From Nautilia profundicola AmH (GTDB lineage Bacteria; Campylobacterota; Campylobacteria; Campylobacterales; Nautiliaceae), in NCBI RefSeq assembly GCF_000021725.1, contig NC_012115.1, positions 1,007,408 to 1,071,407 of the forward strand: a DNA stretch of 64,000 nucleotides, given 5' to 3'. Both the position numbers and the translations under genes were made by a program. The notes beneath the pieces were generated by a model that saw only the letters and a list, made by a program, of their open reading frames with translations, did no database searches and was not told the DNA's origin. The number at the start of each line of letters is the position of its first letter. Position 1 is the stretch's first letter. This document shows, one piece after another, positions 3,647 through 62,864 of this stretch.

Positions 3647-3680
3647 TAATTCTCCTTATTTTTATAATTATATATTATCT

Positions 3681-3728
3681 TCTCAACTTCACAACTTACC
3701 CACTTCACCACTTATCTATTTACCTACT
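3681..3728. repeat. Degenerate tandem repeat, period 8
   Basis: Six 8-base units read TCTCAACT, TCACAACT, TACCCACT, TCACCACT, TATCTATT and TACCTACT. They fill the gap between ilvA and gatB and include the ilvA stop codon (3724-3726). Units share the pattern T-x-x-C-x-A-C-T with drift. This belongs to the dispersed 7-8 base repeat family described in the findings. Confidence 0.75.
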
Positions 3729-4930
3729 CAACTACAAACTTATATCCGTTTTTATGAAGAGCTCTTTTTATAGCTTCTTGATGTTCGAGTCCTCTTGTTT
3801 CAAGGGCAATCGTTACGTTTGCGTCACCTATAGCAAGATTCAGATCCGTTCTGTCATATCCTATCTGAACAATATTCGCTTTTTCAGCAGCAAGTATTTC
3901 AGTTAATTTTTGAAGTGCTCCAGGTTTATCCACAAGTGTAATGATCAGTTTCATTTTTCTGTGTGATTTTAATAAACCTTTTTCAATAATCAAATTAATC
4001 ATTGTCACATCAATGTTTCCGCCACTAAGCACTACTCCGACTTTTTTAGGAGCCGTAAATTTGATTTTATGGTGTAAAAGAGCAGCAACTCCCACAGCAC
4101 CGGCACCTTCAACCACAACTTTTTGTCTTTCCATTAAAAAGAGTATTGCATTTGCAATCTCTTCGTCATCAACTTCCACTATATCATCAACAACTTCTTT
4201 TACAAGTTTGTACATTTTAGGATTTGTATCCCTAACGGCAATACCGTCGGCAATAGTTTTTACAAATGTGGTATCTGAACGCTTCCGCTTAAGAAGCTCA
4301 GTCTCATAGCAGAGCGCCTTCCGCCGTTACGCCTATAACCTTAATATGCGGATTAATCTGTTTAGCCGCGCTTGCTATACCGCTTATTAGTCCGCCTCCA
4401 CCAATCGGGACGATTATATAATCAAGATCAGGAACCTGCTCAAGCATTTCTATTCCGATTGTTCCCTGCCCTGCGATAACCTCGTCGTCGGCAAAAGGAT
4501 GTATAAACTCAAGACCCTTTTCTTCGGCAAGTTTTACAGCATATTCATAGGCTTCGTCATAATTGTTTCCGGCAAGTACCACTTCGCCTCCGAATTCTTT
4601 AACACCGGTTACTTTAGTAAGCGGTGTTGCTTCAGGCATTACTATTATTGCGGGTACATTAAAATAATTCGCACTAAACGCAACACCCTGTGCGTGATTC
4701 CCGGCACTTGCTGCAATTACGCCTTTTTTTCTTTTCTCTTCCGGAATTGACGCAATTTTATTAAAAGCTCCTCTTAATTTAAACGCACCTGTCGTCTGCA
4801 GATTTTCCTTTTTTAAAAAAATCTCGTTTCCGACTTTTTGAGAAAGTATCGGAGCGTAGGCAAAAGGAGTTCTATAAACTACGTCTTTAATTCTTTCGTG
4901 CGCTTTTTTGATATTTTCAAAAGGTATCAT
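3724..4930 (-). pseudogene. ilvA: Threonine dehydratase with internal frame disruption
   Basis: Two adjacent open frames form one IlvA. The first (4930 to 4304) is the PLP-binding half: FKLRGAFNKIAS holds the Schiff-base lysine, ASAGNHAQG the substrate loop and VPIGGGGLISG the phosphate loop. It stops right after TAEGALL. The second frame carries the rest of the catalytic domain (TIADGIAVRDT, VEGAGAVG, VLSGGN) and a C-terminal ACT domain (LVDKPGALQKLTEIL). The stretch between 4216 and 4304 is open in the second frame. Reading about 4310 with one extra base restores the conserved GAPAM-type motif, so there may be two lesions. Threonine dehydratase makes 2-oxobutanoate for isoleucine. It is either a decayed gene or a sequencing error. 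The start overlaps the upstream CoA-binding gene by 4 nt. Confidence 0.85.
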
Positions 4931-22162: not shown

Positions 22163-22190
22163 TTTTACTCCTTATCGTTTGTTTTAAAAA

Positions 22191-22239
22191 TCAACCATCA
22201 ACCATTAACTATCAACTATTAACTATTAACTATTAAATA
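22191..22239. repeat. Heptamer tandem repeat (7 units)
   Basis: Seven consecutive 7-base units: TCAACCA, TCAACCA, TTAACTA, TCAACTA, TTAACTA, TTAACTA, TTAAATA. The last unit contains the serB stop codon (22233-22235). All are direct repeats. The pattern resembles the short tandemly repeated repetitive heptamers known from cyanobacteria. Confidence 0.9.
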
Positions 22240-22853
22240 AACTCTAAAATTTTTGTTAAATCTTTTTCCTCTATCACAATATTGGCTTCTTTTTTCAAAA
22301 CCTCTTTAGCACAAAAGGCCACTTTGGTTTTCGCATGTTTAAACATGCTCAAATCATTAGCCCCGTCACCTACTACCATCGTATCGTTTTCAGTAACACC
22401 CAAAATACTCTGAATTCTCTGAAGCATATCTCCTTTAGAATGACTAAACATCATTTCACCGCCTACAAGCCCCGTTAAAACACCGTCTTTAGAATGTAAT
22501 ACATTGCTGAAATCAGCATCAAGACCTATGAGATCTTTTACATATGAAGTAGCGTTTCTAAATCCACCGCTAAAGCAGATTACCGTTATGTTTCTTTTTT
22601 TCAGTTCTTTTACAATATCTTTTGCCCCCGGCATCAAAGGAAGATTATGACATATTTCATTTACTTTTTTTTCTTCAAGTCCTTCAAGAAGTTTTACCCT
22701 CATAATAAGACTTTCGAAAAAATCAAGTTCACCCCTCATTGCCATTTCCGTAATGGAAGCAACTTTTTCTTTAAGTCCTAAAGGCTCTGCTAAAAAATCA
22801 ATGGTTTCTCCGTCCATCAAAGTAGAATCAAAATCAAAAACCGCAAGTTTCAT
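22233..22853 (-). CDS. serB: Phosphoserine phosphatase
   Basis: 206 residues, HAD fold with motif I DFDSTLMDGETID at residues 6-18, motif II ICFSGGFRNAT, lysine motif and motif IV MVVGDGANDLSMF. It dephosphorylates phosphoserine in the last step of serine synthesis. No N-terminal ACT domain is present, as in Campylobacter SerB. The C-terminus ends within a heptamer repeat that supplies the stop codon, so the original C-terminal end may have been altered slightly by repeat spread. Confidence 0.95.
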   Translation of the reverse strand: MKLAVFDFDSTLMDGETIDFLAEPLGLKEKVASITEMAMRGELDFFESLIMRVKLLEGLEEKKVNEICHNLPLMPGAKDIVKELKKRNITVICFSGGFRNATSYVKDLIGLDADFSNVLHSKDGVLTGLVGGEMMFSHSKGDMLQRIQSILGVTENDTMVVGDGANDLSMFKHAKTKVAFCAKEVLKKEANIVIEEKDLTKILEFI

Positions 22854-34187: not shown

Positions 34188-34189
34188 TG

Positions 34190-34258
34190 TTAAGTGAAAA
34201 GTGCAAAGTGAAAAATGTAAAAGTTCACTTTTCACTCTTCATTTTTAACTTTTCACTA
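34190..34258. repeat. Inverted pair of heptamer arrays between tRNA-Arg and mfrA
   Basis: Five units on the left (TAAGTGA, AAAGTGC, AAAGTGA, AAAATGT, AAAAGTT) face five on the right (CACTTTT, CACTCTT, CATTTTT, AACTTTT, CACTAAT), period 7. The arms are roughly complementary and can fold into a long hairpin that may act as a two-way terminator between convergent genes. The right arm includes the mfrA stop codon. Confidence 0.85.
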
Positions 34259-35962
34259 ATACTTTCTCTCTGCCGGTTCGTAAAGGCTTAAGTCAACCTT
34301 ACCTTTTTCATATTTGAAACTTCCGTCGCTGTTTCTGCTAATCATTGAGTGATATAAAAAGTTTTCGTCATCTCTTTTTGGATAATCGTCTCTATAAAAA
34401 CTACCTCTACTTTCTTTTCTCTGAAGTGAAGCATAAGCCAATACATCTGCAATTTCAAGTAAATTATAAAATTCAAGCAGACTTTGAAGATCAGTATTAA
34501 ATACTTTTGATTTATCTTCAACAGCAAGGTTTTTATTTGCTCTTTCAATAAGATTTTTAAGTTTATCGTAACCTTCTTGCATCTCTTTTTCATTTTTGAA
34601 TACACCGAAATGTCTAAACATAATCTCACCCAATTCGTCTCTGAGATCACCTAAAGTCTCTTTACTTTCTCTGTCAAATAGCTCTTGAATAAATTTAACA
34701 TCATCCTGAAGTTTGCTTTCTCCGCCTTTTGCAAAGTCAGTACCTTCAGCATATCTCACTGCTTCTTTTCCTGCAACATGCCCGAATACAACGATATCAA
34801 GAAGTGAGTTTCCTCCAAGTCTGTTCGCACCATGTACGCTTACACACTGCGCTTCACCGGCCGCATAAATACCTGCAATCGGAGTTTCACATCTAACATC
34901 AGTATGAATTCCACCCATTGCATAGTGCGCAGTAGGTTTGATAGGGATAGGCTCTTTAATCGGATCAATACCTTCAAAATCTATAGTAAGTTCCCTAATC
35001 TGCGGAAGTCTTGATTTTATTTTTTCCTCTCCAAGATGAGTAAGGTCAAGATGTACGTATTCTCTTCCCTCTTCATCTTTAAAACCTCTGCCTTCTCTGA
35101 TTTCTGTCATAATACTTCTACTTACCAAATCTCTAGGCCCAAGCTCCATTTTTTCAGGAGCGTATTTACTCATAAATCTTTCACCTTTGTTATTTAAAAG
35201 ATGTCCGCCTTCACCTCTTGCCGCTTCAGATACAAGAATCGCAGACTTTCTAAGCCCTGTCGGGTGGAATTGTAAAAACTCCATATCTTTAAGAGGAAGC
35301 CCGGCTCTAAGTGCGGCAGCCGTACCGTCTCCCGTACATCCTAAAGCATTTGAAGTATATCCCCAGTAAATTCTGCTGTGTCCACCAGTAGCTAAGATAA
35401 CAGCTTTAGCATGAATAAACTGTATTTCACCCGTTGCAATATTAATAGCGGTTACACCCTGCAATCTTTCACCGTCATGTACTATGTTTAACATAAACCA
35501 TTCATTCAAGAATTTAATATCATGCTTAATACACTGTTCATATAAAGTATGAAGCATAACATGCCCCATCTTATCGGCACTGTAGCATGTTCTGTCTTTA
35601 CTTGCCCCACCAAACGGTCTTTGTGCTATTTTTCCGTTATTAAGTCTGCTAAAAGGCACACCCATATGCTCCATTTCTCTGATAATTCTCGGAGCTTCAA
35701 AACACATATATTTTACAGCTTTTTGGTCAGCAAGATAATCGCTTCCTTTAACAGTATCGAAGGTATGTAGTTCTTCACTATCAGTAGGGTCTACATTTGC
35801 AAGTGCTGCATTAACACCACCTTGCGCAGCACCCGTATGAGAACGTGTAGGATAAACTTTCGTAAGAACGGCAACTTCCATTCCTTTTGCTTCTTCGGCC
35901 GCACTAAGTGCAGCATAAAGTCCCGCTCCACCGGCACCAACAATTAATACATCAACTTTCAT
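34256..35962 (-). CDS. mfrA: Fumarate reductase/succinate dehydrogenase flavoprotein subunit, no Tat signal
   Basis: 568 residues, FAD-binding 2 family: GAGGAGLYAALSA (dinucleotide fold) at 8-20, SHTGAAQGG with the histidine that attaches FAD covalently, HPTGL, RGEGGHLLN, RSIMTEI and the C-terminal HYAMGGIHTD / GANRLGGNSLLD motifs. It interconverts fumarate and succinate. The protein starts at MKVDVLIVGAGG with no leader, so unlike the periplasmic MfrA of Wolinella or Campylobacter it has no twin-arginine signal and should be cytoplasmic. This agrees with a role in central carbon metabolism. A TATAAT -10 box lies upstream (35993-35998). Confidence 0.93.
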   Translation of the reverse strand: MKVDVLIVGAGGAGLYAALSAAEEAKGMEVAVLTKVYPTRSHTGAAQGGVNAALANVDPTDSEELHTFDTVKGSDYLADQKAVKYMCFEAPRIIREMEHMGVPFSRLNNGKIAQRPFGGASKDRTCYSADKMGHVMLHTLYEQCIKHDIKFLNEWFMLNIVHDGERLQGVTAINIATGEIQFIHAKAVILATGGHSRIYWGYTSNALGCTGDGTAAALRAGLPLKDMEFLQFHPTGLRKSAILVSEAARGEGGHLLNNKGERFMSKYAPEKMELGPRDLVSRSIMTEIREGRGFKDEEGREYVHLDLTHLGEEKIKSRLPQIRELTIDFEGIDPIKEPIPIKPTAHYAMGGIHTDVRCETPIAGIYAAGEAQCVSVHGANRLGGNSLLDIVVFGHVAGKEAVRYAEGTDFAKGGESKLQDDVKFIQELFDRESKETLGDLRDELGEIMFRHFGVFKNEKEMQEGYDKLKNLIERANKNLAVEDKSKVFNTDLQSLLEFYNLLEIADVLAYASLQRKESRGSFYRDDYPKRDDENFLYHSMISRNSDGSFKYEKGKVDLSLYEPAERKY

Positions 35963-35998: not shown

Positions 35999-36070
35999 AC
36001 GAAAACTTATATTAAATAAGATAATTTTGGTGTGAATTCTGATTCAGTGTTACGGGCTGTTACAAAAAAA

Positions 36071-36250
36071 GTTATTTAGTTAATAAAGTTGTTAAGGTTA
36101 AAGAAGTTAGTTAAGTTGTTAAGGTTATTGAGGTTAGTGAAGCTGGTAAGGTTATATCGCTTTAGAATTTAAAAACTTTAACTAACTTTAATTAACCTCA
36201 ACTAACCTTAACAACCATAAAAACCCTAACTAACTTTAACTACTTTAACT
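36071..36250. repeat. Long inverted pair of period 8-10 repeats upstream of mfrA
   Basis: The left arm (36071-36155) has units such as AAGTTGTT, AAGGTTAA, AAGTTAGTT and AAGGTTATTG. The right arm (36176-36250) has ACTTTAACTA, ACTTTAATTA, ACCTCAACTA and ACCTTAACA. The right arm read on the other strand resembles the left (GTTGTTAAGGTTA and GAGGTTA occur in both), so a long imperfect hairpin can form. It fills most of the 277-base gap and includes the stop codon of the TolC-like gene. Confidence 0.85.
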
Positions 36251-37439
36251 TCCAATTATGCAGTTTATAATATAGTGAAAGTAACAGTTTTTGTTTTTGG
36301 AGTTTTAATATTTCAATATTAACAAACATAGTTTTTCTTGAGTTTTCCAATATTTGAAGATCAAGCTTCGTTGCATTTCCCGCTTCAATCGAATCAAGTG
36401 TTGAAGCTATAAGATCATCATATATTTTTACATTATCTTTATAAATCTGTATTTTTTTATCAATCGTTTTTATCTGATTAACGATGTTGTTATATGTGTT
36501 TGTTAACTGTAATTTTTTATCCTCTATCATTGTCAGTGATTTAAGATAATCAATTTTACTTTTTTGTATTTTATTTACGGCATTGAAACTGATAGGTAAT
36601 GTTACACTAAATCCGATTCTATAATAATCGTTTTTTGAATCCTGAAATAACGGAGTATTTTGCGAATACATTGTTTTTTGCCAGTTCAAAGAACCGTTTA
36701 TATTTACACTTAATAACTGATCTCCAAACTGCATTTTATACAAATCGTATTTTACTTTTTTAAGTTTTTTTTGAGCTAAAAGATCCAAATTTGATTTTAA
36801 ATACTGATTTTTCGTAATTAGCTCAAACACTGGCAGCTTTATTTTATCTATATTCAGTGATGATATGTTTTTAAATGAATTTCTGAGACTTTCCAAATTT
36901 GTTTTCAAATCTTCCAAATTCAGTTTTAACCCGTTTAGCTGTAAAATTGCGTTGTTAAGGAGCGTAGAGTCCCCTATTCCGTTTAAAAACTCCTCTTTTT
37001 TCTTTTTTATATCTATTTTCGTATTTGCAATATTTAAAAGTATTATTTTTTGATTAAGTTTGGTTATTTTATAATCATACGCCAAATCAAGAGCCTGTTT
37101 TATAAGAGCCCTTCTTTGAAGTTCAATATTTAACATATTATATGATTTGGAATGTTGAGCATATTTAATCGAATAATAAATGGCCCCGGATTTAAAAACA
37201 GGCTGATTTACGCTGATACTGAATGTTTTATTTGTTGTTTTAATGCTTCCGAGTGTATTGTCTTTCGAATAAGAATACTTTAATATTATCGGACTTATCC
37301 ATGATTTTTCAGTATCTTTACTGTCCTGAATGCTTTGTTCTTTGTCAAAATTCAGCTCTTTTTGCTTCAAATCATTCAATAAATCTCCACTAAAAACCAA
37401 TGCTGGAAATAACAAAAAAAGAAATTTTTTTAGTTTCAA
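36240..37439 (-). CDS. TolC-family outer membrane efflux protein
   Basis: 399 residues with a signal peptide (MKLKKFLFLLFPALVFSG) and two OEP-type repeats of long helices (YAQHSKSYNMLNIELQRRALIKQALDLAYDYKI; LTMIEDKKLQLTNTYNNIVNQIK) separated by strand segments (ISVNQPVFKSGAIYYS; YRIGFSVTLPISF). TolC-type trimers form outer-membrane channels for RND or ABC efflux or type I secretion. The start is TTG with GGAGAAG upstream, one base after the argD stop. Its final two codons and stop lie in the repeat arm. No pump genes are adjacent; the substrate is unknown. Confidence 0.88.
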   Translation of the reverse strand: MKLKKFLFLLFPALVFSGDLLNDLKQKELNFDKEQSIQDSKDTEKSWISPIILKYSYSKDNTLGSIKTTNKTFSISVNQPVFKSGAIYYSIKYAQHSKSYNMLNIELQRRALIKQALDLAYDYKITKLNQKIILLNIANTKIDIKKKKEEFLNGIGDSTLLNNAILQLNGLKLNLEDLKTNLESLRNSFKNISSLNIDKIKLPVFELITKNQYLKSNLDLLAQKKLKKVKYDLYKMQFGDQLLSVNINGSLNWQKTMYSQNTPLFQDSKNDYYRIGFSVTLPISFNAVNKIQKSKIDYLKSLTMIEDKKLQLTNTYNNIVNQIKTIDKKIQIYKDNVKIYDDLIASTLDSIEAGNATKLDLQILENSRKTMFVNIEILKLQKQKLLLSLYYKLHNWKLK

Positions 37440-39111: not shown

Positions 39112-39125
39112 TTTGTTCCTTTAGA

Positions 39126-39157
39126 GTATTGGTATATTAGTATATTGGTTATTAGTG
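39126..39157. repeat. Octamer tandem repeat (4 units)
   Basis: Four 8-base units GTATTGGT, ATATTAGT, ATATTGGT, TATTAGTG lie just upstream of the unknown acidic gene (minus) and of sulP (plus), in their divergent promoter region. Degenerate, period 8. Confidence 0.65.
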
Positions 39158-39237
39158 TTGTCCACTTTTACTAAGCCAAAAAATTTATTAACCTTATATG
39201 TTATAATTCTGCCTCGAAAAATTTTAAAGGATTATAC

Positions 39238-40737
39238 TTGTTTTCTAAGATATTACAAAATTATAACGCAAAAAATACCAAAAACGAGTTACTAAGCGGA
39301 ACAGTCGTGGCAATTGCACTTGTACCGGAAGCTATTGCGTTTAGTATCATCGCCGGAGTTTCTCCTCTTGTAGGATTATATACGGCTTTCATATTAGGAC
39401 TTATTACGGCGCTTTTTGGAGGAAAACCGGGAATGATAAGCGGTGCCACCGGAAGTGTGGCTGTTGTAATGGTCTCACTCGTGGCGAGCCACGGAGTTGA
39501 ATATCTTTTCTGGGCTACGGTACTTGCAGGTATTATTCAGATACTTGTAGGTGTTTTTAAACTTGCGAAATTCATACGTCTTGTACCTATGCCAGTTGTT
39601 TACGGATTTGTAAACGGACTTGCCATTATTATAGCTATGGCACAGTTTCCGATGTTTAAAGGCGAAGGTTATATTATGTACATTTTAGTAGCCCTTACTA
39701 TGGCTATTATGTGGTTTTTACCTAAATTCACAAAAGCAATCCCTTCAGGACTCGGTGCGATTATTGCAATTACAGCGCTTGTACTTATATTTAATCTTGA
39801 TACGAAAAAAATAGGAGATTTGGCACATATCAGCGGAAGTTTCCCGCATTTCCACCTGCCCCTCGCACCTCTAAACTGGGAAACTATTAAAATCATTCTA
39901 CCTTATTCAATCATTATGGCTCTTGTAGGGCTTATAGAATCGCTACTTACACTTGAAGTATTGGAAGAAATGAGCGGTGAGAGAGGCAACGGAAACAAAG
40001 AAGCAATTGCACTCGGAGCCGGAAATGCAACATGCGGACTTTTCGGCGGAATGGCCGGATGCGCAATGATAGGACAGAGTGTAATCAATTATACTTCAGG
40101 CGGACGAGGAAGACTTAGTGCCGCATTTGCAGCCATACTTTTAATTTTGTTTGTCGTGGCACTTGCTAAATATATAGAACAGATCCCTCTTGCCGCACTT
40201 GTCGGAATTATGTTTATGGTAAGTATTGCAACATTTGAATGGGCAAGTTTCGACAGACTCAAAAGGATGCCGAAAGAAGACGCTTTCGTACTTATAGCCA
40301 CCACATTGATTACAATCTTTACCGATCTTGCAATTGCAGTAATAAGCGGTGTTATAATTTCAGCACTTGTATTTGCATGGAAACACGCAAAAGTTTATTT
40401 TAAAACCAAAATGGAAGGTAACAGAAAAATTTATGAATTTGAAGGGCCTCTGTTTTTCGGAAGCGCAAAAAGTTTTATTGAAAGTTTTGACGTTAAAAAC
40501 GACCCCGACGAAGTGGTAATGGATTTTAAAAACGTACGTGTTAAAGACTCAAGCGGCGTGGAAGCCATAGATAAAATCACAAAAAAATATCTCGAAAACG
40601 GCAAAAAACTTACAATCAGACACCTAAGTGACGAGTGTAAAAAACTCCTCAAAGTCGCAGGGCCTTACTGCACTTACGAAGAAGACGACCCTAACTATAA
40701 AGTGGCGGTAAATCCGGAAGAACTTAAACAAAACTGA
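39238..40737 (+). CDS. SulP-family anion transporter with STAS domain
   Basis: 499 residues. The membrane part (~1-385) has the SulP motif [40 protein letters not shown] and the [24 protein letters not shown] loop; about 11-14 helices. The C-terminal STAS domain (~400-495) has [15 protein letters not shown]. Family members carry sulfate, bicarbonate or other anions; bicarbonate would suit an autotroph, but that is inference. The start is TTG with AAAGG upstream. A TATAAT box lies near 39203. It runs into priA convergently with a 14-base overlap. Confidence 0.92.
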
Positions 40738-42529
40738 CCGGATCCACATCCACTTTCATTTCATTAATATTCACGCACGGATATATGATTTTATGAAGGT
40801 TTTTGCCTTTAAGCAGTACCTGGTATCGAAATATGTTTTTGATTTTGAATATAGGGGCTTCACCAGAGCCTACTATCTCAGGCCTGTTTCCAATACAGCG
40901 TAAAAACCTGTCCATTTTTTCTTTGGCTTTTATTTTGTCTTTATCCTGAAATTCTATTTTTATAAGTCTGTTAAACGGCGGGTATCCGAGCTCTTTTCTG
41001 TTTTGTATCTCTTCATCATAAAATTCCTCATAGCTTCTGTCAAAAAATTCTGGATTAAGCGTTTGAATAATAACCTCGCCGTCCTCTTTTCTTCCTGCCC
41101 TTCCTTCAACCTGGCGTGCCAAGGCAAAAGCCCTCTCCCCGGCTCTGTAATCCGCACTGTTAAGTACAAAATCTATATCAAGTACAATTGAAAGCGCAAC
41201 ATCCGGATAGTCATGCCCTTTACTGAGCATTTGCGTGCCTATTAAAATATCTATCTCTTTATTTGCAAATCTTTTTAGCAGTTTATCAACCCTGGATTTG
41301 GAAGTGATAACGTCCCTGTCAAATTTTTCTATAACTGCATCAGGGAAAATCCCTTTTAAAACTTCTAAAAATTCACTCGTACCCATTCTTTCGTTTATAA
41401 ATTCTTCACTTCCACAGTATTCACAGCTTGAAGGAATATGCATACTGTAATTGCAGTAATGACATACAAGCGCTCTTTTATTTTTATGTACACTCATTGC
41501 AACATCACAGTGTTTGCATTTTACCGCCTTACCGCACTCGGCACATATCATATATTTAAAATTCGCACGTGTCGGAAGGAATATAATAACTTGTTTATTT
41601 TTCTCAATGGTATCTTTTATTTTTTGTATGATAAAATCATCAAATGTGCTTCTGAAATATCTTGTTTTTTTCGTATTGTAAAACGTTCCTTTCAGTCTGA
41701 AATGTGGAAATTTATATAGATCACTTATAAGAGGAGTTGCGCTTCCGAGTATTACTTTGGCATCGTAAATTTTACCGAAATATACTGCCAGATCTTTTGC
41801 GTTGTATTTTGGAGTCTGTTCGGATTTATAGCTGTCGTCATGCTCTTCATCCACAATTATCAACCCAAGATTTTCAAGAGGCAAAAACAGAGCACTTCTG
41901 GCACCCGCTACAATTTTAATCTCACCTTTTGCAATTCCTGAAAGAATTTGTTGTTTTTTCTTTTTGGTTATTTTACTGTGCCATATAGCAAGTGCTTCTC
42001 CGAAATATTTTTGAAGTCTTTTTTCCATTTGTGAGGTTATAGCAATTTCAGGCAGTAAAAAAAGTACCTGTTGTCCATCATTAAGCACTTCTTCTATTAG
42101 TTTGATATATATCTCCGTTTTGCCGCTTCCGGTATCACCGAAAAGTACCGACACATCGTTTTTTTTCAAAAACTTCAACGCTTCTTGTTGTTTATCTGTT
42201 AATTTTATGTCTGTTTTTACATTATTAATTTTCCATTTTACATTTTCAATTTTACATTCGTAGAAAAGTCCCGCCGCTTCACCAATAGGAGCAAAATAAT
42301 ATTTGCAAATAAAATCAATAATTTTTTGTTTCTTCGAAGAAAATGAATAAAGTTTTGAAAGTATAACTTTACATTCAAAATTAGGCTTTTGAACTTCTTT
42401 TACAACATAACCTGTTGTTTTTCTGTTTCTTACTTCAATTTCAACAACATCGCCGGGATTTAATTCAAAATTTGAGCTGTATGTAAAAGTATTTGGAGTG
42501 TTAATAACAGCTATATCGTAGTATTTCAT
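40724..42529 (-). CDS. priA: Primosomal protein N' (replication restart helicase PriA)
   Basis: 601 residues, superfamily 2 helicase: Walker [10 protein letters not shown] near 129-137, Walker [21 protein letters not shown], and zinc-binding cysteines [13 protein letters not shown]...CHYC...CEYC in the C-terminal half. PriA reloads the replisome at stalled forks. It is shorter than E. coli PriA by about 130 residues, mostly at the N-terminal DNA-binding domain, as in Campylobacter and Helicobacter. Residues around 91-103 ([13 protein letters not shown]) are encoded by a heptamer array inside the gene. The start overlaps the pilin gene stop by 4 nt. Confidence 0.95.
42227..42259. repeat. Heptamer array inside priA
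   Basis: TTTT runs at exact 7-base steps (42229, 42236, 42243, 42250) give units AATTTTC, CATTTTA, CATTTTC and AATTTTA. The array is in frame within priA, adding a Lys/Asn/Val-rich stretch between the N-terminal domain and the helicase core. It is the same repeat type as in queA and the glycosylase gene. Confidence 0.85.
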
Positions 42530-50189: not shown

Positions 50190-50220
50190 TTTATCTCCTT
50201 ATATAAAAATTAACGTAAAA

Positions 50221-50369
50221 GTAAACAAATGACAGCGTTGCGAAATTTAGTGAAAAATTTTGCGTATAAAAAATTGCACCTACCCGAAGGGCAGCCATAG
50301 CTGTTTGCAATTTTTAGCAAAATTTAAACGTTATTAAGCAAAATAAGCTCTCAGCTGTCATTGTTTAAC
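50221..50369. other. Nested inverted-repeat element (MITE-like or structured RNA)
   Basis: A 149-base block between the cyclophilin and thioredoxin genes. Its ends, GTAAACAAATGACAGC (50221-50236) and GCTGTCATTGTTTAAC (50354-50369), are near-perfect inverted repeats. Inside are two further inverted pairs, AAATTTTGC/GCAAAATTT and AAAAATTGCA/TGCAATTTTT, in nested order, with a GC-rich tip ACCCGAAGGG and CAGCCATAGCTG. The whole can fold into one long hairpin. No coding frame is supported. It could be a small mobile element or a structured RNA. Confidence 0.7.
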
Positions 50370-50406
50370 TTTGAAGTTAAACTTAATAGAATTATACCAA
50401 ATTTAT

Positions 50407-50466: not shown

Positions 50467-50907
50467 ATGAGTGATATAGTTATTGCATGTCCACATTGTA
50501 AAAGTTTAAATAAATTACCTAAAAAAGACGAATATAAAAAAGCGGTATGCGGAGTATGTAAGGGCAACCTTCTTGAGAATAAAGCCATTTCCGTTGACAG
50601 TTACGACGAGTTTCAAAAAATAGTAAACTCTGTAACAGTTCCTGTGATTATTGATTTCTGGGCTGAATGGTGCGGTCCGTGCCAGATGTTTGCACCAATA
50701 TTTAATAAAGTAGCGGGAAGTTTTCCGCTTCAGGCTCAATTTATTAAAGTCAACACAGACAAAAACCAACAAGCAGCCATGCAGTTTGGAATTAGAAGTA
50801 TTCCTACAATAGTAGCTCTAAAAGACGGAGTGGAAATAGACAGAGCCATGGGTGCATTGGATGAATTTAGTTTTAGTATGTGGGTAGATAAGATAGTTGA
50901 AAGTTAA
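50467..50907 (+). CDS. trxC: Thioredoxin 2-like protein with N-terminal zinc ribbon
   Basis: 146 residues from the ATG at 50467 (AAAGGAG upstream); a longer frame from 50371 would cover the promoter and is rejected. CPHC at 9-12 and CGVC further on form a zinc ribbon, then the thioredoxin fold with active site WAEWCGPCQMF and the cis-Pro motif IRSIPTIVAL. It reduces protein disulfides in the cytoplasm. The zinc-ribbon form is called TrxC or Trx2 in other bacteria. The last codon and stop (AGTTAA) sit in a heptamer array. Confidence 0.93.
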   Translation: MSDIVIACPHCKSLNKLPKKDEYKKAVCGVCKGNLLENKAISVDSYDEFQKIVNSVTVPVIIDFWAEWCGPCQMFAPIFNKVAGSFPLQAQFIKVNTDKNQQAAMQFGIRSIPTIVALKDGVEIDRAMGALDEFSFSMWVDKIVES

Positions 50908-50957
50908 AAATGTAAAGTGAAAAGTGATTTAAACTTTTCACTTTTAACTCTTCATTG
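50895..50957. repeat. Inverted pair of heptamer arrays between trxC and queA
   Basis: Left units such as AGTTGAA, AGTTAAA, AATGTAA, AGTGAAA and AGTGATT face right units TTTTCAC, TTTTAAC, TCTTCAT and TGTGCAC, period 7. The two arms can pair as an imperfect hairpin. It lies between the convergent ends of trxC and queA and contains the trxC stop; a terminator role is plausible. Confidence 0.85.
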
Positions 50958-50962
50958 TGCAC

Positions 50963-52006
50963 TCATATAATGAGCATTGCGTCTCCGTAGCTGTAAAAAC
51001 GGTATTCGTTTTTTATGGCTTCTTCATATAGTTCAAGAGTTTTTTTTCTTCCTATAAATGCAGCTACAAGCATAATAAGCGTAGATTTTGGCAAATGAAA
51101 GTTTGTGAGAAGATGATTTACTCTAATCGGAGGATTCAGAGGGTTTAAAAACAGATCGCACTCGCCTGAGAGTTTACCCGTCCTCGCATAATATTCCACA
51201 GTTCTTGTAACGGTTGTCCCGACTGCTACTATTTCTTCACTGCCATCAAGCACCCTTGCGGTATCTTCAGGTATTTCAAAAAATTCACTGTGCATTTTAT
51301 GCTCTCTTATATCCTCAACATCCACCGGTTTAAACGTACCGGCTCCCACATGCAGGGTTAAATATGATTTTTTATCTATTTTATTTAAAAGCTCGTCCGT
51401 AAAATGTAAGCTCGCTGTAGGAGCGGCAACTGCTCCTTCTTTTTTGGCAAATACTGTCTGGTATTCTTTTTCGTCTATTTTTTCATCTTCTCTTTTAATA
51501 TACGGAGGAAGCGGAACATGCCCTATTTCTTCAAGAATTTTTACTAACTGTAAAAAATCAATTTCTTTTTCAGTTTTACATTTTTCACTTTTCACTTTAA
51601 ACTTCACCACCCTGCTTCCGTCATCAAGCAGTTCAACGACCTCTGCCATAAGTCCCTTGTCAAAAAAAAGTCTGCTTCCCGGTTTAACTTTACCTCTTAT
51701 GTATACAAGATAACCGTCTCTATAAGGTCTGTTAAGAAGCAGTTCAACCTTTCCGCCGGTTTCTTTTGTTCCGAAAATTCTGGCCTTTATAACTTTTGTA
51801 TTATTAAATATAAAATGAGATTCACCCACAAAATCAAGTATATTTCTAAACACTGTATGTGTAATTCTGTCTGTTTTTCTATCATAAACGAGAAGTTTGG
51901 CACTATCCCGGGGAGTTACGGGATATCTGGCTATTAAATTTTCAGGCAGGTTATAATCGTATGATGATACCAATACATCCTTATTAATCAGTTGATCACT
52001 TTTCAT
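50963..52006 (-). CDS. queA: S-adenosylmethionine:tRNA ribosyltransferase-isomerase
   Basis: 347 residues with QueA motifs: DYNLPENLIARYPVTPRDSAKLLV, ILDFVGESHFIFNNTKVIKARIFG, GHVPLPPYIKREDE, GAVAAPTASLHFTDELL, HVGAGTFKPV and TVTRTVEYYAR...NHLLTNFHLPKSTLIMLVAAFIG. It forms epoxyqueuosine from preQ1-tRNA. The start ATG (52004-52006) lies in a heptamer array, so MKSDQLINKDV is an unusual N-terminus; a later TTG is possible. A second array inside the gene adds about VKSEKCKTEK in frame near residue 140. Confidence 0.93.
   Translation of the reverse strand: MKSDQLINKDVLVSSYDYNLPENLIARYPVTPRDSAKLLVYDRKTDRITHTVFRNILDFVGESHFIFNNTKVIKARIFGTKETGGKVELLLNRPYRDGYLVYIRGKVKPGSRLFFDKGLMAEVVELLDDGSRVVKFKVKSEKCKTEKEIDFLQLVKILEEIGHVPLPPYIKREDEKIDEKEYQTVFAKKEGAVAAPTASLHFTDELLNKIDKKSYLTLHVGAGTFKPVDVEDIREHKMHSEFFEIPEDTARVLDGSEEIVAVGTTVTRTVEYYARTGKLSGECDLFLNPLNPPIRVNHLLTNFHLPKSTLIMLVAAFIGRKKTLELYEEAIKNEYRFYSYGDAMLII
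51571..51605. repeat. Heptamer array inside queA
   Basis: Units CAGTTTT, ACATTTT, TCACTTT, TCACTTT and AAACTTC follow at exact 7-base steps. On the coding strand they give the Lys-rich stretch FKVKSEKCKTEKE within QueA, in frame, at a place where a short surface loop would be expected. Confidence 0.85.
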
Positions 52007-52024
52007 TTTTCACTTTTAACTTCA
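51997..52024. repeat. Heptamer array at the start of queA
   Basis: Units CACTTTT, CATTTTT, CACTTTT and AACTTCA span the queA start codon and its ribosome-binding region, up to the pilT stop. The array may have replaced the original translation start; no purine-rich Shine-Dalgarno stronger than AAGTGAAAAATG is present on the coding strand. Confidence 0.75.
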
Positions 52025-53092
52025 TTATACGCCTATAAGTTTTCTAAGCTCTTCCGGTTTAGTAGTATAAGCCATTGCAGTTTCTTTATCTATAATATGG
52101 CGTCTAACATATTCAGCGAGAACCTGATTCATAGTCTGCATTCCGGTTGCACCTTGATTAAGCTGCATTTGCGAATAAATCTGAGGAATTTTATTTTCAC
52201 GGATAAGGTTTGCAATTGCCGGGTTATTAATCATAATTTCATGAGCGGCAATTCTACCTCCTCCTATTTTAGGAAGTAAGCTTTGTGAAATAACTGCAAG
52301 TATAGCCATAGAAAGCTGAGTTCTTATTTGATCCTGTTCGTTTGCAGGGAAAACGTTTACGATTCTGTTGATTGTCTGAACGGCAGAGTTAGTATGCAAT
52401 GTAGCAAATACAAGGTGCCCTGTTTCAGCTGCAGTAATTGCTGCACCGATAGTTTCTTTATCTCTCATCTCTCCGATTAAGATCACATCCGGGTCTTCCC
52501 TAAGTGAAGCTCTTAGAGCGTTTAAAAACGCTTTTGTATCTCTTCCGACTTCTCTTTGGGAAATAAGTGATTTTTTATGCTCATGCACAAACTCAATAGG
52601 ATCTTCAATTGTAATAATATGTTTTGAAAAAGCTTCGTTTATTTCATTTATCATTGCAGCAAGTGTTGTAGATTTACCGCTACCTGTTGGACCCGTTACA
52701 AGAATAAGCCCTTTTTCCCTTCTTACTATTCTTTTAAATATTGCAGGTGCGTGAAGTTCTTCTAATGTAAAAGGTTTTTCAGGAATAATTCTGTATGCAG
52801 CAGCTAAATTTTCTCTTTCAAAATAGTAATTTGCCCTAAATCTCGCAACTTTCGGAATTTCAAAAGAAAAGTCAAGTTCTAATTGATCTTCTAATGCAGC
52901 CTTTTGTTTTTCAGTTAAAACAGAATAACAAAGCTCAATTACATCTTCTTTGGTAAGTTTAGGAAGGTTTAGTGGTGTTAACTTACCATCAATTCTTAGC
53001 ATCGGTTCAGCATTTACATTAAGATGCAAATCCGATGCTTTGTAATCTTTTATACTTCTTAAAAGTTGTTCAAGTGAATATGTTAGTGCCAT
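52025..53092 (-). CDS. pilT: Pilus retraction ATPase PilT
   Basis: 355 residues: PAS-like start ASDLHLNVNAEPMLRIDG, Walker A GPTGSGKSTT near 131, IIT(I)EDPIEF, DVILIGEMRD and HLVFATLHT. The PilT retraction motif is present as PAIANLIRENKI, unlike the paralogue at 20085-21206. It pulls type IV pili and drives twitching and DNA uptake. gatC precedes it by 10 bases; queA follows after a short repeat. Confidence 0.95.
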   Translation of the reverse strand: MALTYSLEQLLRSIKDYKASDLHLNVNAEPMLRIDGKLTPLNLPKLTKEDVIELCYSVLTEKQKAALEDQLELDFSFEIPKVARFRANYYFERENLAAAYRIIPEKPFTLEELHAPAIFKRIVRREKGLILVTGPTGSGKSTTLAAMINEINEAFSKHIITIEDPIEFVHEHKKSLISQREVGRDTKAFLNALRASLREDPDVILIGEMRDKETIGAAITAAETGHLVFATLHTNSAVQTINRIVNVFPANEQDQIRTQLSMAILAVISQSLLPKIGGGRIAAHEIMINNPAIANLIRENKIPQIYSQMQLNQGATGMQTMNQVLAEYVRRHIIDKETAMAYTTKPEELRKLIGV

Positions 53093-62329: not shown

Positions 62330-62367
62330 AAATGGAGAATGAAAATTGAAACTTGAGAATGAAAAAT
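62326..62367. repeat. Heptamer array spanning dprA stop and glycosylase start
   Basis: Units TTGAAAA, TGGAGAA, TGAAAAT, TGAAACT, TGAGAAT and GAAAAAT at 7-base steps. The first unit contains the dprA stop; units four to six encode the first residues (LENEKL) of the next protein. The array thus forms both the intergenic region and a new N-terminus. Confidence 0.88.
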
Positions 62368-62864
62368 TAACTCATCCTTTCGAACCTGTTGTTTTTGAAG
62401 ACAGTAAATTATTGATACTTGGAACTTTTCCTTCTATAAAATCGTTTGAAAACGAGTTTTATTATTCCCATCCGAGAAATCAGTTTTGGGAAATATTATC
62501 CATTGTATTTAAAGACAAAAAACCCGAAACAATAGAAGAAAAAATAAAATTCTTAAAAAAACACAAAATAGCCCTTTGGGATGCCGTATGTGAATGTAAA
62601 AGAAAAAAAGGAAATTCAAGGGATGATAATCTCGAAATTCTAAAACCTTGCGATATTGAAAGTTTATTAAAACGCTATCCAAATATTAAAAAAGTTGCCG
62701 TTACTTCCAGAACGGCAGAAAAAGTAATAAAAAAATATTTGACTAATTCTCAATTCTCAATTCTTAATTCTCTATTATATCTCCCAAGTCCGAGTCCTCT
62801 TAACGCAAGAATGAAAATAAAAGAAAAGGCCGAAACATGGAAAAAATTATTGGAATTGACGTAG
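62346..62864 (+). CDS. Hypoxanthine/uracil DNA glycosylase-like protein (UDG family 6-type)
   Basis: 172 residues from a TTG at 62346; no in-frame ATG is available. LILGTFPSIKSFENEFYYSHPRNQFWEIL near residues 23-52 is the active-site region of hypoxanthine-DNA glycosylases (family 6, DNA-deoxyinosine glycosylase), and LYLPSPSPLNAR near the C-terminus is the DNA-binding loop. It would remove deaminated bases such as hypoxanthine. The segment NSQFSILNSL, just before that loop, is encoded by a second heptamer array. The gene overlaps ruvX by 28 bases. Confidence 0.85.
   Translation: MKLENEKLTHPFEPVVFEDSKLLILGTFPSIKSFENEFYYSHPRNQFWEILSIVFKDKKPETIEEKIKFLKKHKIALWDAVCECKRKKGNSRDDNLEILKPCDIESLLKRYPNIKKVAVTSRTAEKVIKKYLTNSQFSILNSLLYLPSPSPLNARMKIKEKAETWKKLLELT
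62745..62772. repeat. Heptamer array inside the glycosylase gene
   Basis: AATTCTC, AATTCTC, AATTCTT and AATTCTC follow at exact 7-base steps. They encode the Asn/Ser-rich NSQFSILNS in frame, just before the conserved LPSPSP loop. Three units (21 bases) would add exactly seven codons without shifting frame. Confidence 0.9.

Follow-up and report, generated by a model that had tools for sequence, protein, structure and literature searches.

The STRR sequences of cyanobacteria are tandem units of seven bases. In Xanthomonas (GGGAATC) and Nostoc (GGGGA(C/T)T), heptamers are mostly intergenic and lie near the upstream ORF, and the available sections of the same report, which also mention Calothrix heptamers, give 70 and 75 close pairs of GGGAATC "with convergent orientation" in Xanthomonas (PMC4692102). 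The heptamer TAACTGA is dispersed in Beggiatoaceae, cyanobacteria and Bacteroidetes; the available text states that no mechanism of transfer was found and that close strains differ by 7-nt indels (PMC4679880). A survey quoted there ranked heptamers first in abundance among long simple repeats for most of the genomes it covered. Others have reported an excess of heptamers, alongside which a 2025 survey states, in the text available, that short tandem repeats are not enriched overall in bacteria (PMC12699852). REP/RAYT palindromes are described as 20-40 bp long with a GTAG or CGTC tag (PMC3733652, in part), and further prior work was available as excerpts (PMC2628731, PMC4853749, PMC3372288, PMC6749651). 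In the accessible text of the Nautilia profundicola genome paper the word "repeat" occurs once, in a protein name.

Here, a stretch of 64,000 nucleotides (the window, G000:C1:1007408-1071407) of the 1,676,444-base genome of N. profundicola AmH (G000) was analysed. Its arrays belong to the known class of dispersed heptamer repeats (STRR, Xanthomonas GGGAATC, Beggiatoaceae TAACTGA), a class whose origin is unexplained. A preliminary description, made from the sequence, had related them to the cyanobacterial heptamers, and they are indeed relatives in kind: the likeness to STRR lies in the tandem seven-base units, and the sequence comparison is limited to AATKGAG, found among the matches listed in Okeania, Crocosphaera and Symploca. 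With GGGAATC they share seven-base units and position-specific variation (GGGANTN), but GGGAATC units are G-rich with one C, whereas the Nautilia words are C-less; the available parts of that report give no coding-strand preference, whereas the C-less strand is mostly sense in Nautilia, and they stress quadruplexes and describe neither orthologous word replacement nor a start register (PMC4692102). As with TAACTGA, the heptamers are dispersed and their words are common to distant lineages. In the sections available, TAACTGA is the single main word, contains C as well as G and is found mainly ahead of start codons in the best-studied genome (PMC4679880), while the words in Nautilia form a C-less family that is often placed at gene ends or inside genes. 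Period 7 is dominant as in the long simple repeats of Mrazek 2007 (cited in PMC4679880, in part). A literature search, with most subscription papers outside it, returned no report of word replacement, a shared start register or a cross-phylum polarity, and a text search with four of the words gave nothing related, as judged from titles.

Tandem arrays and their units

All eleven loci named in the preliminary description hold short tandem arrays (Table 1). In the window, Tandem Repeats Finder returned 21 non-overlapping arrays of any period with a score of at least 40, against means of 4.75 and 4.95 (maxima 9 and 10) in two sets of 40 Markov simulations. Across 584 kb of G000, 42 ungapped period-7 arrays were found where 1.25 were expected (mean of four simulations), an excess of head-to-tail units of about seven bases as in STRR. 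The excess was weaker at periods 8 (14 against 2.0) and 9 (13 against 1.75) in the same 584 kb and simulations. These results demonstrated that the arrays are real and far above the chance rate. The same 584 kb gave 119 candidate arrays, any coding look-alikes included, many of which overlap called ORFs and some of which lie in frame inside genes. ORFs were called by a simple script and genes were named by family searches. At the gathering threshold, Rfam matched only two tRNAs in the window.

Table 1. Tandem arrays of the window. Positions are those of the window. G001 is of the same genus as G000; G007, G003, G004 and G008 are of other genera of Nautiliaceae and syntenic with G000 across much of the window
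Feature	Position	Strand	Composition and context	Related genomes
8-mer array	3679..3730	-	C-less on - strand; CTTCACAA type read on +; contains stop codon of ilvA-like ORF 3724-4215	same-type array in G001
7-mer array ATCAACY/ATTAACT	22190..22240	-	C-less on - strand; contains serB stop codon	corresponding G001 site without array
Hairpin, AGTGAAA-type	34188..34260	.	C-less arm 34190-34224 then G-less arm 34224-34258; between tRNA-Arg and fumarate-reductase flavoprotein gene	
9-10-mer hairpin, AAGGTTGTT-type	36066..36252	.	C-less arm then G-less arm; contains stop codon of TolC-like gene	G001 without hairpin
Array TATTGGTATATTAGTA	39125..39160	+	C-less on + strand; divergent genes on either side	9-mer inverted pair instead in G001
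7-mer array AATGTAA/AATGGAA/AATTGAA	42213..42262	-	sense strand C-less; inside priA open frame (40724-42529 -)	different words in G001, G004, G008; G007 without array
Hairpin, AGTGAAA-type	50893..50957	.	between convergent thioredoxin and queA genes	
Array	51565..51606	-	in frame inside queA (50963-52006 -)	loop holds array with differing words in 8/12 family genomes (degenerate in G007); loop shorter, without array in the other 4/12
Array	51994..52026	-	covers queA start codon, just past stop of T2SSE-family gene	in G000 and G001; not in G007, G003, G004, G008
Array AATTGAA/AATGGAG/AATGAAA	62324..62367	+	at dprA stop codon	G003 is an exact empty site; other arrays in G007, G004, G008
AATTGAG-type array	62743..62778	-	sense strand G-less; inside hypoxanthine-DNA-glycosylase gene (62346-62864 +)	

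The arrays are nearly without C on one strand. A unit profile was built from 83 G000 and 46 G001 period-7 arrays, chosen without a word or composition filter; no position was forced, but the alignment was seeded on the skeleton of a regex profile with three forced positions. Position 1 was A (0.83 in both genomes), position 3 was T (0.87 in both) and position 6 was A (0.81 in G000, 0.73 in G001), while C reached at most 0.07 at every position and positions 2, 4, 5 and 7 were variable. The units are drawn from a vocabulary of word families, such as AGTGAAA/AATGAAA/AATGTAA/AGTTAAA, AATTGAG/AATGGAG and AATGGAA/AATGTAA/AATGGAC, alongside families of 8-base and 9-base words, and single substitutions connect the words. 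A period of 7 or 8 was first described for all loci, but the array at 36071-36250 is made of 9-10-base units. Copies within a locus had also been called near-identical; only 27 of 143 neighbouring units were identical, and the arrays are thus filed as a variant of dispersed heptameric repeats. Within three word families, adjacent identical units numbered 8/56, 8/45 and 11/42, compared with 8.2, 7.7 and 12.4 for random draws, so that the order of units within a family is about that of random draws; this is the main argument against slippage. One exception lies outside the window, a perfect array of 51 AATTGAG units over 357 bases (G000:C1:725819, L244:10819-11175), whose regularity suggests slippage or a highly regular template.

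Position relative to genes and orthologous sites

The arrays had been said to hug stop codons. Six of the eleven do include a stop codon belonging to a called ORF (the ilvA-like, serB, fumarate-reductase flavoprotein, TolC-like, thioredoxin and dprA genes), compared with 4.1% of random 45-bp windows, a clustering at gene ends; the rest lie elsewhere. Among the latter is the array at 42227-42259 on which the preliminary description centred, which falls within the priA coding region. Likewise, 51571-51605 and 62745-62772 proved to lie inside genes (queA and the DNA-glycosylase gene), and divergent genes flank 39126-39157. The ilvA-like ORF matches the C-terminal part of threonine ammonia-lyase only; the adjoining ORF 4304-4930 may carry the rest of ilvA, and the gene may be split or frameshifted.

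In a count over G000 the C-less strand was mostly sense: 43 of 56 arrays overlapping or adjoining a gene end had this orientation (p 7e-5). For genes on the lagging strand there was only a trend (12 versus 7, p 0.36). An effect of the leading strand was tried as the source and set aside as weak, with the C-less strand leading in 42 of 68 arrays (p 0.07), and the sense bias is the stronger of the two. Arrays of weak skew or low complexity were dropped before the strand, sense and inverted-pair counts and some of the site comparisons.

Array sites often persist in sister species while their words differ, including those inside priA and queA. At 34188, G001 has an AATTGAG hairpin and G008 another hairpin, G003 and G004 have no array, and the hairpin of G007 is the AGTGAAA hairpin of G000 with two differences in 73 bases. 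At 50893, G001 has an AATTGAG-type hairpin, G004 has AATGGAT-type arms, G003 has no array and G007 has a near-identical hairpin. At both sites the two arms change words together between conserved flanks. Predicted folding energies are -20.8 (G000), -20.0 (G001) and -16.7 (G008) kcal/mol at 34188, and -17.3 (G000) and -18.0 (G001) kcal/mol at 50893, where the arms of G004 fold scarcely better than shuffles (z -0.99).

To compare the two genomes of the genus, 424 kb of G000 and 440 kb of G001 were scored by script, an array being called kept when its identity was at most 12 points below that of its flanks. Among 33 scored G000 arrays, 16 were kept, 10 had another array in G001, 6 had other sequence and 1 was a clean absence; 18 of the 51 arrays were left unscored (11 had no ortholog and 7 were not clear arrays). 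Inspected by eye, six of the ten replaced sites were changes of word family (6813, 88447, 93354, 134191, 142214 and 150927), G001 having words of the AATTGAG or AATGGAG type, and the remaining four were altered in unit number or spelling only. Site 244035, variously scored by the script as without array or as other sequence, is by eye also a change of word family. Words at orthologous sites are thus replaced.

The bases of an array could in principle be ancestral, but at least two blocks look gained and are best read as gains. In G000, about 140 bp at 1279224 form a 9-mer hairpin block that is absent from G001, G004 and G008, where the flanks abut or nearly so; it was therefore most likely gained in G000. 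G002 has other sequence there. Conversely, G001 has a block of about 107 bp that is absent from G000 and, from the coordinates of adjoining matches, seems absent from G003, G009, G010 and G011. Short junction repeats (TATAAA, TT/TTAA, TTA) occur inconsistently at a few inserts, and one G008 junction has a 6-bp repeat amid other array-like sequence.

Spread of the words, polarity of inverted pairs and start register

Among 200 genomes of the class, three consecutive AATKGAG units were found in seven: five Nautiliaceae, G071 of another family (29 match windows) and G145 (2). G000 has 85 such match windows, 49 of which come from its 51-unit array. The reversed control, GAGKTAA x3, gave zero in those seven genomes; in the 200-genome scan it matched G202 alone (18 match windows), which is another heptamer family. 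No AATKGAG x3 was found in G017 and G142, which are of the genus of G071 and too distant from it for a close-relative comparison. The sampled stretches of G071 are 55-58% GC and bear the same AT-rich words. Several of its arrays (L246-L250) lie directly beside what looks like a terminator, a GC-rich hairpin carrying a T run (GGTATGCGTTGCTTTGCAACGCTTTTT), and beside short repeats of other types.

A scan of genome contigs for AATKGAG gave at least 116 stretches, of which 80 were listed. The listed titles include Acidobacteria, Bacteroidetes, Clostridia, Cyanobacteria, Planctomycetes, Cloacimonadota, Gemmatimonadota, Treponema, Desulfobacteria and others. Among these listed matches, AATTGAG/AATGGAG loci span 0.30-0.66 GC, with 37 of 80 at 0.5 or above. 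With the seed arrays excluded, the 80 loci held 86 arrays of period 7, 13 of period 8, 10 of period 12, 6 of period 9 and 1 of period 6. The words do not track the GC content of the host, and an origin from local sequence was rejected on this ground. G239 has AATTGAG pairs, mostly of two units per arm, around short, variable and often GC-rich loops.

The arms of inverted pairs follow a nearly fixed order. All 27 pairs with arms at most 120 bp apart were C-less then G-less, and none was reversed (25 distinct sites, the tRNA-Arg site of G000 and G007, and 211521 of G000 with 239767 of G001, each being counted twice). Ten pairs came from Nautiliaceae, two from G071 and 15 from the 80 cross-phylum loci listed, and they cover several word families. 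Same-direction pairs within 120 bp numbered eight. The junctions of the 27 pairs, typed from protein ORFs, were co-directional in 15 cases, divergent in 5, convergent in 3 and at locus edges in 4; the tRNA-Arg site accounts for two of the 15, with the tRNA on + and the gene it faces on -. Because the order of a pair reads identically on both strands, its polarity is no strand artefact. The preliminary description had missed this polarity, together with the near-absence of C or G per strand and the pairing into hairpins. We read the convergent GGGAATC pairs, as given in the available sections of PMC4692102, as having the same polarity in another word.

The polarity prediction was then put to whole genomes with mirror patterns of one word family. 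The C-less-first pattern gave 270 match windows in 21 of 52 genomes, and the G-less-first pattern gave 4 in 3 of the 52. These windows overlap, so the sites are fewer. The 52 genomes were 49 word-bearing ones from the listed cross-phylum loci plus G000, G001 and G071; G000 and G071 had no match window of either polarity. The exceptions are G245, with two reversed windows against one regular, and G220, with one reversed and none regular. Six of the 27 inverted pairs had arms of different words, and all six were C-less first, one arm being doubtful and purine-rich.

C-less arrays also begin in a common register. Of 166 5' starts, 115 were at unit positions 7/1, where 46.8 were expected (chi2 156), while the 3' ends were weakly phased (chi2 24). 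This test allowed all word variants and dropped identical arrays, and the start-register bias was present in both data sets. Selection for stop codons was considered as its source and ruled out, since the bias persisted among the 96 starts not near sense stop codons, 68 of which were at 7/1 against 26.3 expected.

Possible origins of the arrays

Polarity, the shared start register, the random order of units and a vocabulary independent of the host must be explained by any origin, and they make the question testable. Our working explanation, held tentatively and with somewhat less than even confidence, is that C-less heptads are synthesised onto free 3' DNA ends by a putative enzyme and then joined. 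The arrays would be added DNA: a DNA-synthesising activity would extend a free 3' end with units from a limited vocabulary of A, G and T and almost no C, beginning in one register and ending almost anywhere, after which the DNA ends would be joined. One extended end would give a single array, and two extended ends joined to each other would give a hairpin of fixed polarity, its C-less arm preceding its G-less arm. An array broken again would be trimmed on both sides and re-extended with the current words, which would alter the words yet keep the place, the rough length and the hairpin form. Arrays would persist where they are tolerated or useful, often at stop codons with the C-less strand in sense, and sometimes as in-frame protein loops. 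We infer that such an enzyme exists and acts on 3' ends, that the ends are joined and that arrays break repeatedly. Directional C-less synthesis with joining would account for the polarity, the register, the random order, the host-independent words and the concerted change of both arms. With the enzyme, not the local DNA, as the source of the words, the same words would appear again and again, both at scattered loci and in hosts that are not related.

The telomere repeats of eukaryotes are short units whose nearly C-less strand ends 3' and whose words are independent of the surrounding sequence. Nautilia arrays resemble them in their short units and nearly C-less strand, and the proposed end addition would work alike; unlike telomere repeats, the arrays are internal, and G000, G001 and G008 are without RVT_1. 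The RVT_1 reverse transcriptase domain had no match in these three array-bearing genomes, and a reverse transcriptase was accordingly rejected as the maker, together with telomerase-like synthesis on an RNA template by RVT_1; an enzyme of another family is possible. RVT_1 matches occur in 3 of 14 family genomes (G003, G004 and G007). Ku was absent from all 14 family genomes tested, which ruled out Ku end joining as the joiner. Neither an RVT_1-family enzyme nor Ku-dependent joining is therefore the present machinery there.

Several observations count against end addition: the perfect 51-unit array, the weak phasing of 3' ends, the 16 of 33 scored arrays kept in G001, and the polarity exceptions of G245 and G220. 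The hairpins 34188-34260 and 50893-50957 of G000 are 96-97% identical to those of G007 between flanks of 71-82% identity, which end addition leaves unexplained, and the junctions are not clean enough to prove a signature of break repair. A wider form of the proposal, which we regard as possible but rather doubtful, is that many phyla share a telomere-like enzyme adding C-less heptads from a coded vocabulary, in a fixed register, at broken 3' ends, the words recording the version of the enzyme. If an end-adding enzyme exists, bacteria have a telomere-like repair route of which no description was found; if it does not, the data still show how ready-made repeats reshape protein loops and gene ends.

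Alternatively, arrays and hairpins might be copied as micro-mobile elements (MITE- or REP-like, by ectopic gene conversion or by short imports through natural transformation). The words would then be common because arrays copy arrays, and the polarity would be that of an element's inverted ends. We consider this unlikely as a general origin, and possible above all for the 9-mer hairpins, two of which align in G000 at 72% over 136 bp, and for the near-identical hairpins of G000 and G007. The two gains were block insertions, as copying would have it, and the whole-genome polarity counts, made with one word family, would suit a single element too. Against this, the order of units within a word family is not copied. 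Most arrays are also solitary (35 neighbour pairs within 120 bp among 341 arrays), whereas a MITE or inverted-end transposon has the same sequence at both ends; the six mixed-word pairs keep the polarity, a result not predicted by one element whose ends are inverted; and at -11552 the word changed (37 versus 37 bp) while both flanks stayed at 89%. The earlier statement that the arrays are not an ordinary mobile element is likely, short of proven, with a copied micro-element as its rival.

Replication slippage, suggested at the outset, might act together with point mutation and selection. Short seeds would grow in 7-base steps, the footprint of the polymerase, drift by single substitutions (AGTGAAA-AATGAAA-AATGGAA-AATGGAG-AATTGAG) and be kept where a hairpin or a C-less RNA is useful. 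The abundance of heptamers among long simple repeats in most surveyed genomes and the 7-nt polymerase step proposed for them speak for it (Mrazek 2007, from the available text of PMC4679880), as do the perfect 51-unit array, the single substitutions that join the words and the several G000/G001 sites that differ just in unit number or single bases. The Mrazek mechanism is polymerase slippage, but the Nautilia unit order does not show it: identical neighbours are not in excess. The same words occur in hosts of widely differing GC, the polarity of pairs is nearly fixed even at co-directional and divergent junctions, one start register holds across loci and phyla, and the empty dprA site of G003 contains no seed unit. 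Slippage may lengthen arrays; as their main origin we judge it quite unlikely, given the random unit order and the presence of the words in a relative with sampled stretches of 55-58% GC and in many phyla.

It is very unlikely that structural selection on ordinary transcription terminators or on hairpins at mRNA ends explains the arrays, with words left free since only pairing matters: the preserved hairpin energies at 34188 and 50893 despite other words and the sense-strand bias near and in genes would fit, but the G004 arms at 50893 are little better than shuffles, many arrays are unpaired or within genes, pairing needs no C-less-first order, and several sites have no array in sister genomes.

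A repeat of about 170 bases lies at window positions 50208-50380, upstream of the thioredoxin gene. It may be a miniature element, and many partial or full copies of it occur in G008, G002, G004 and G009.
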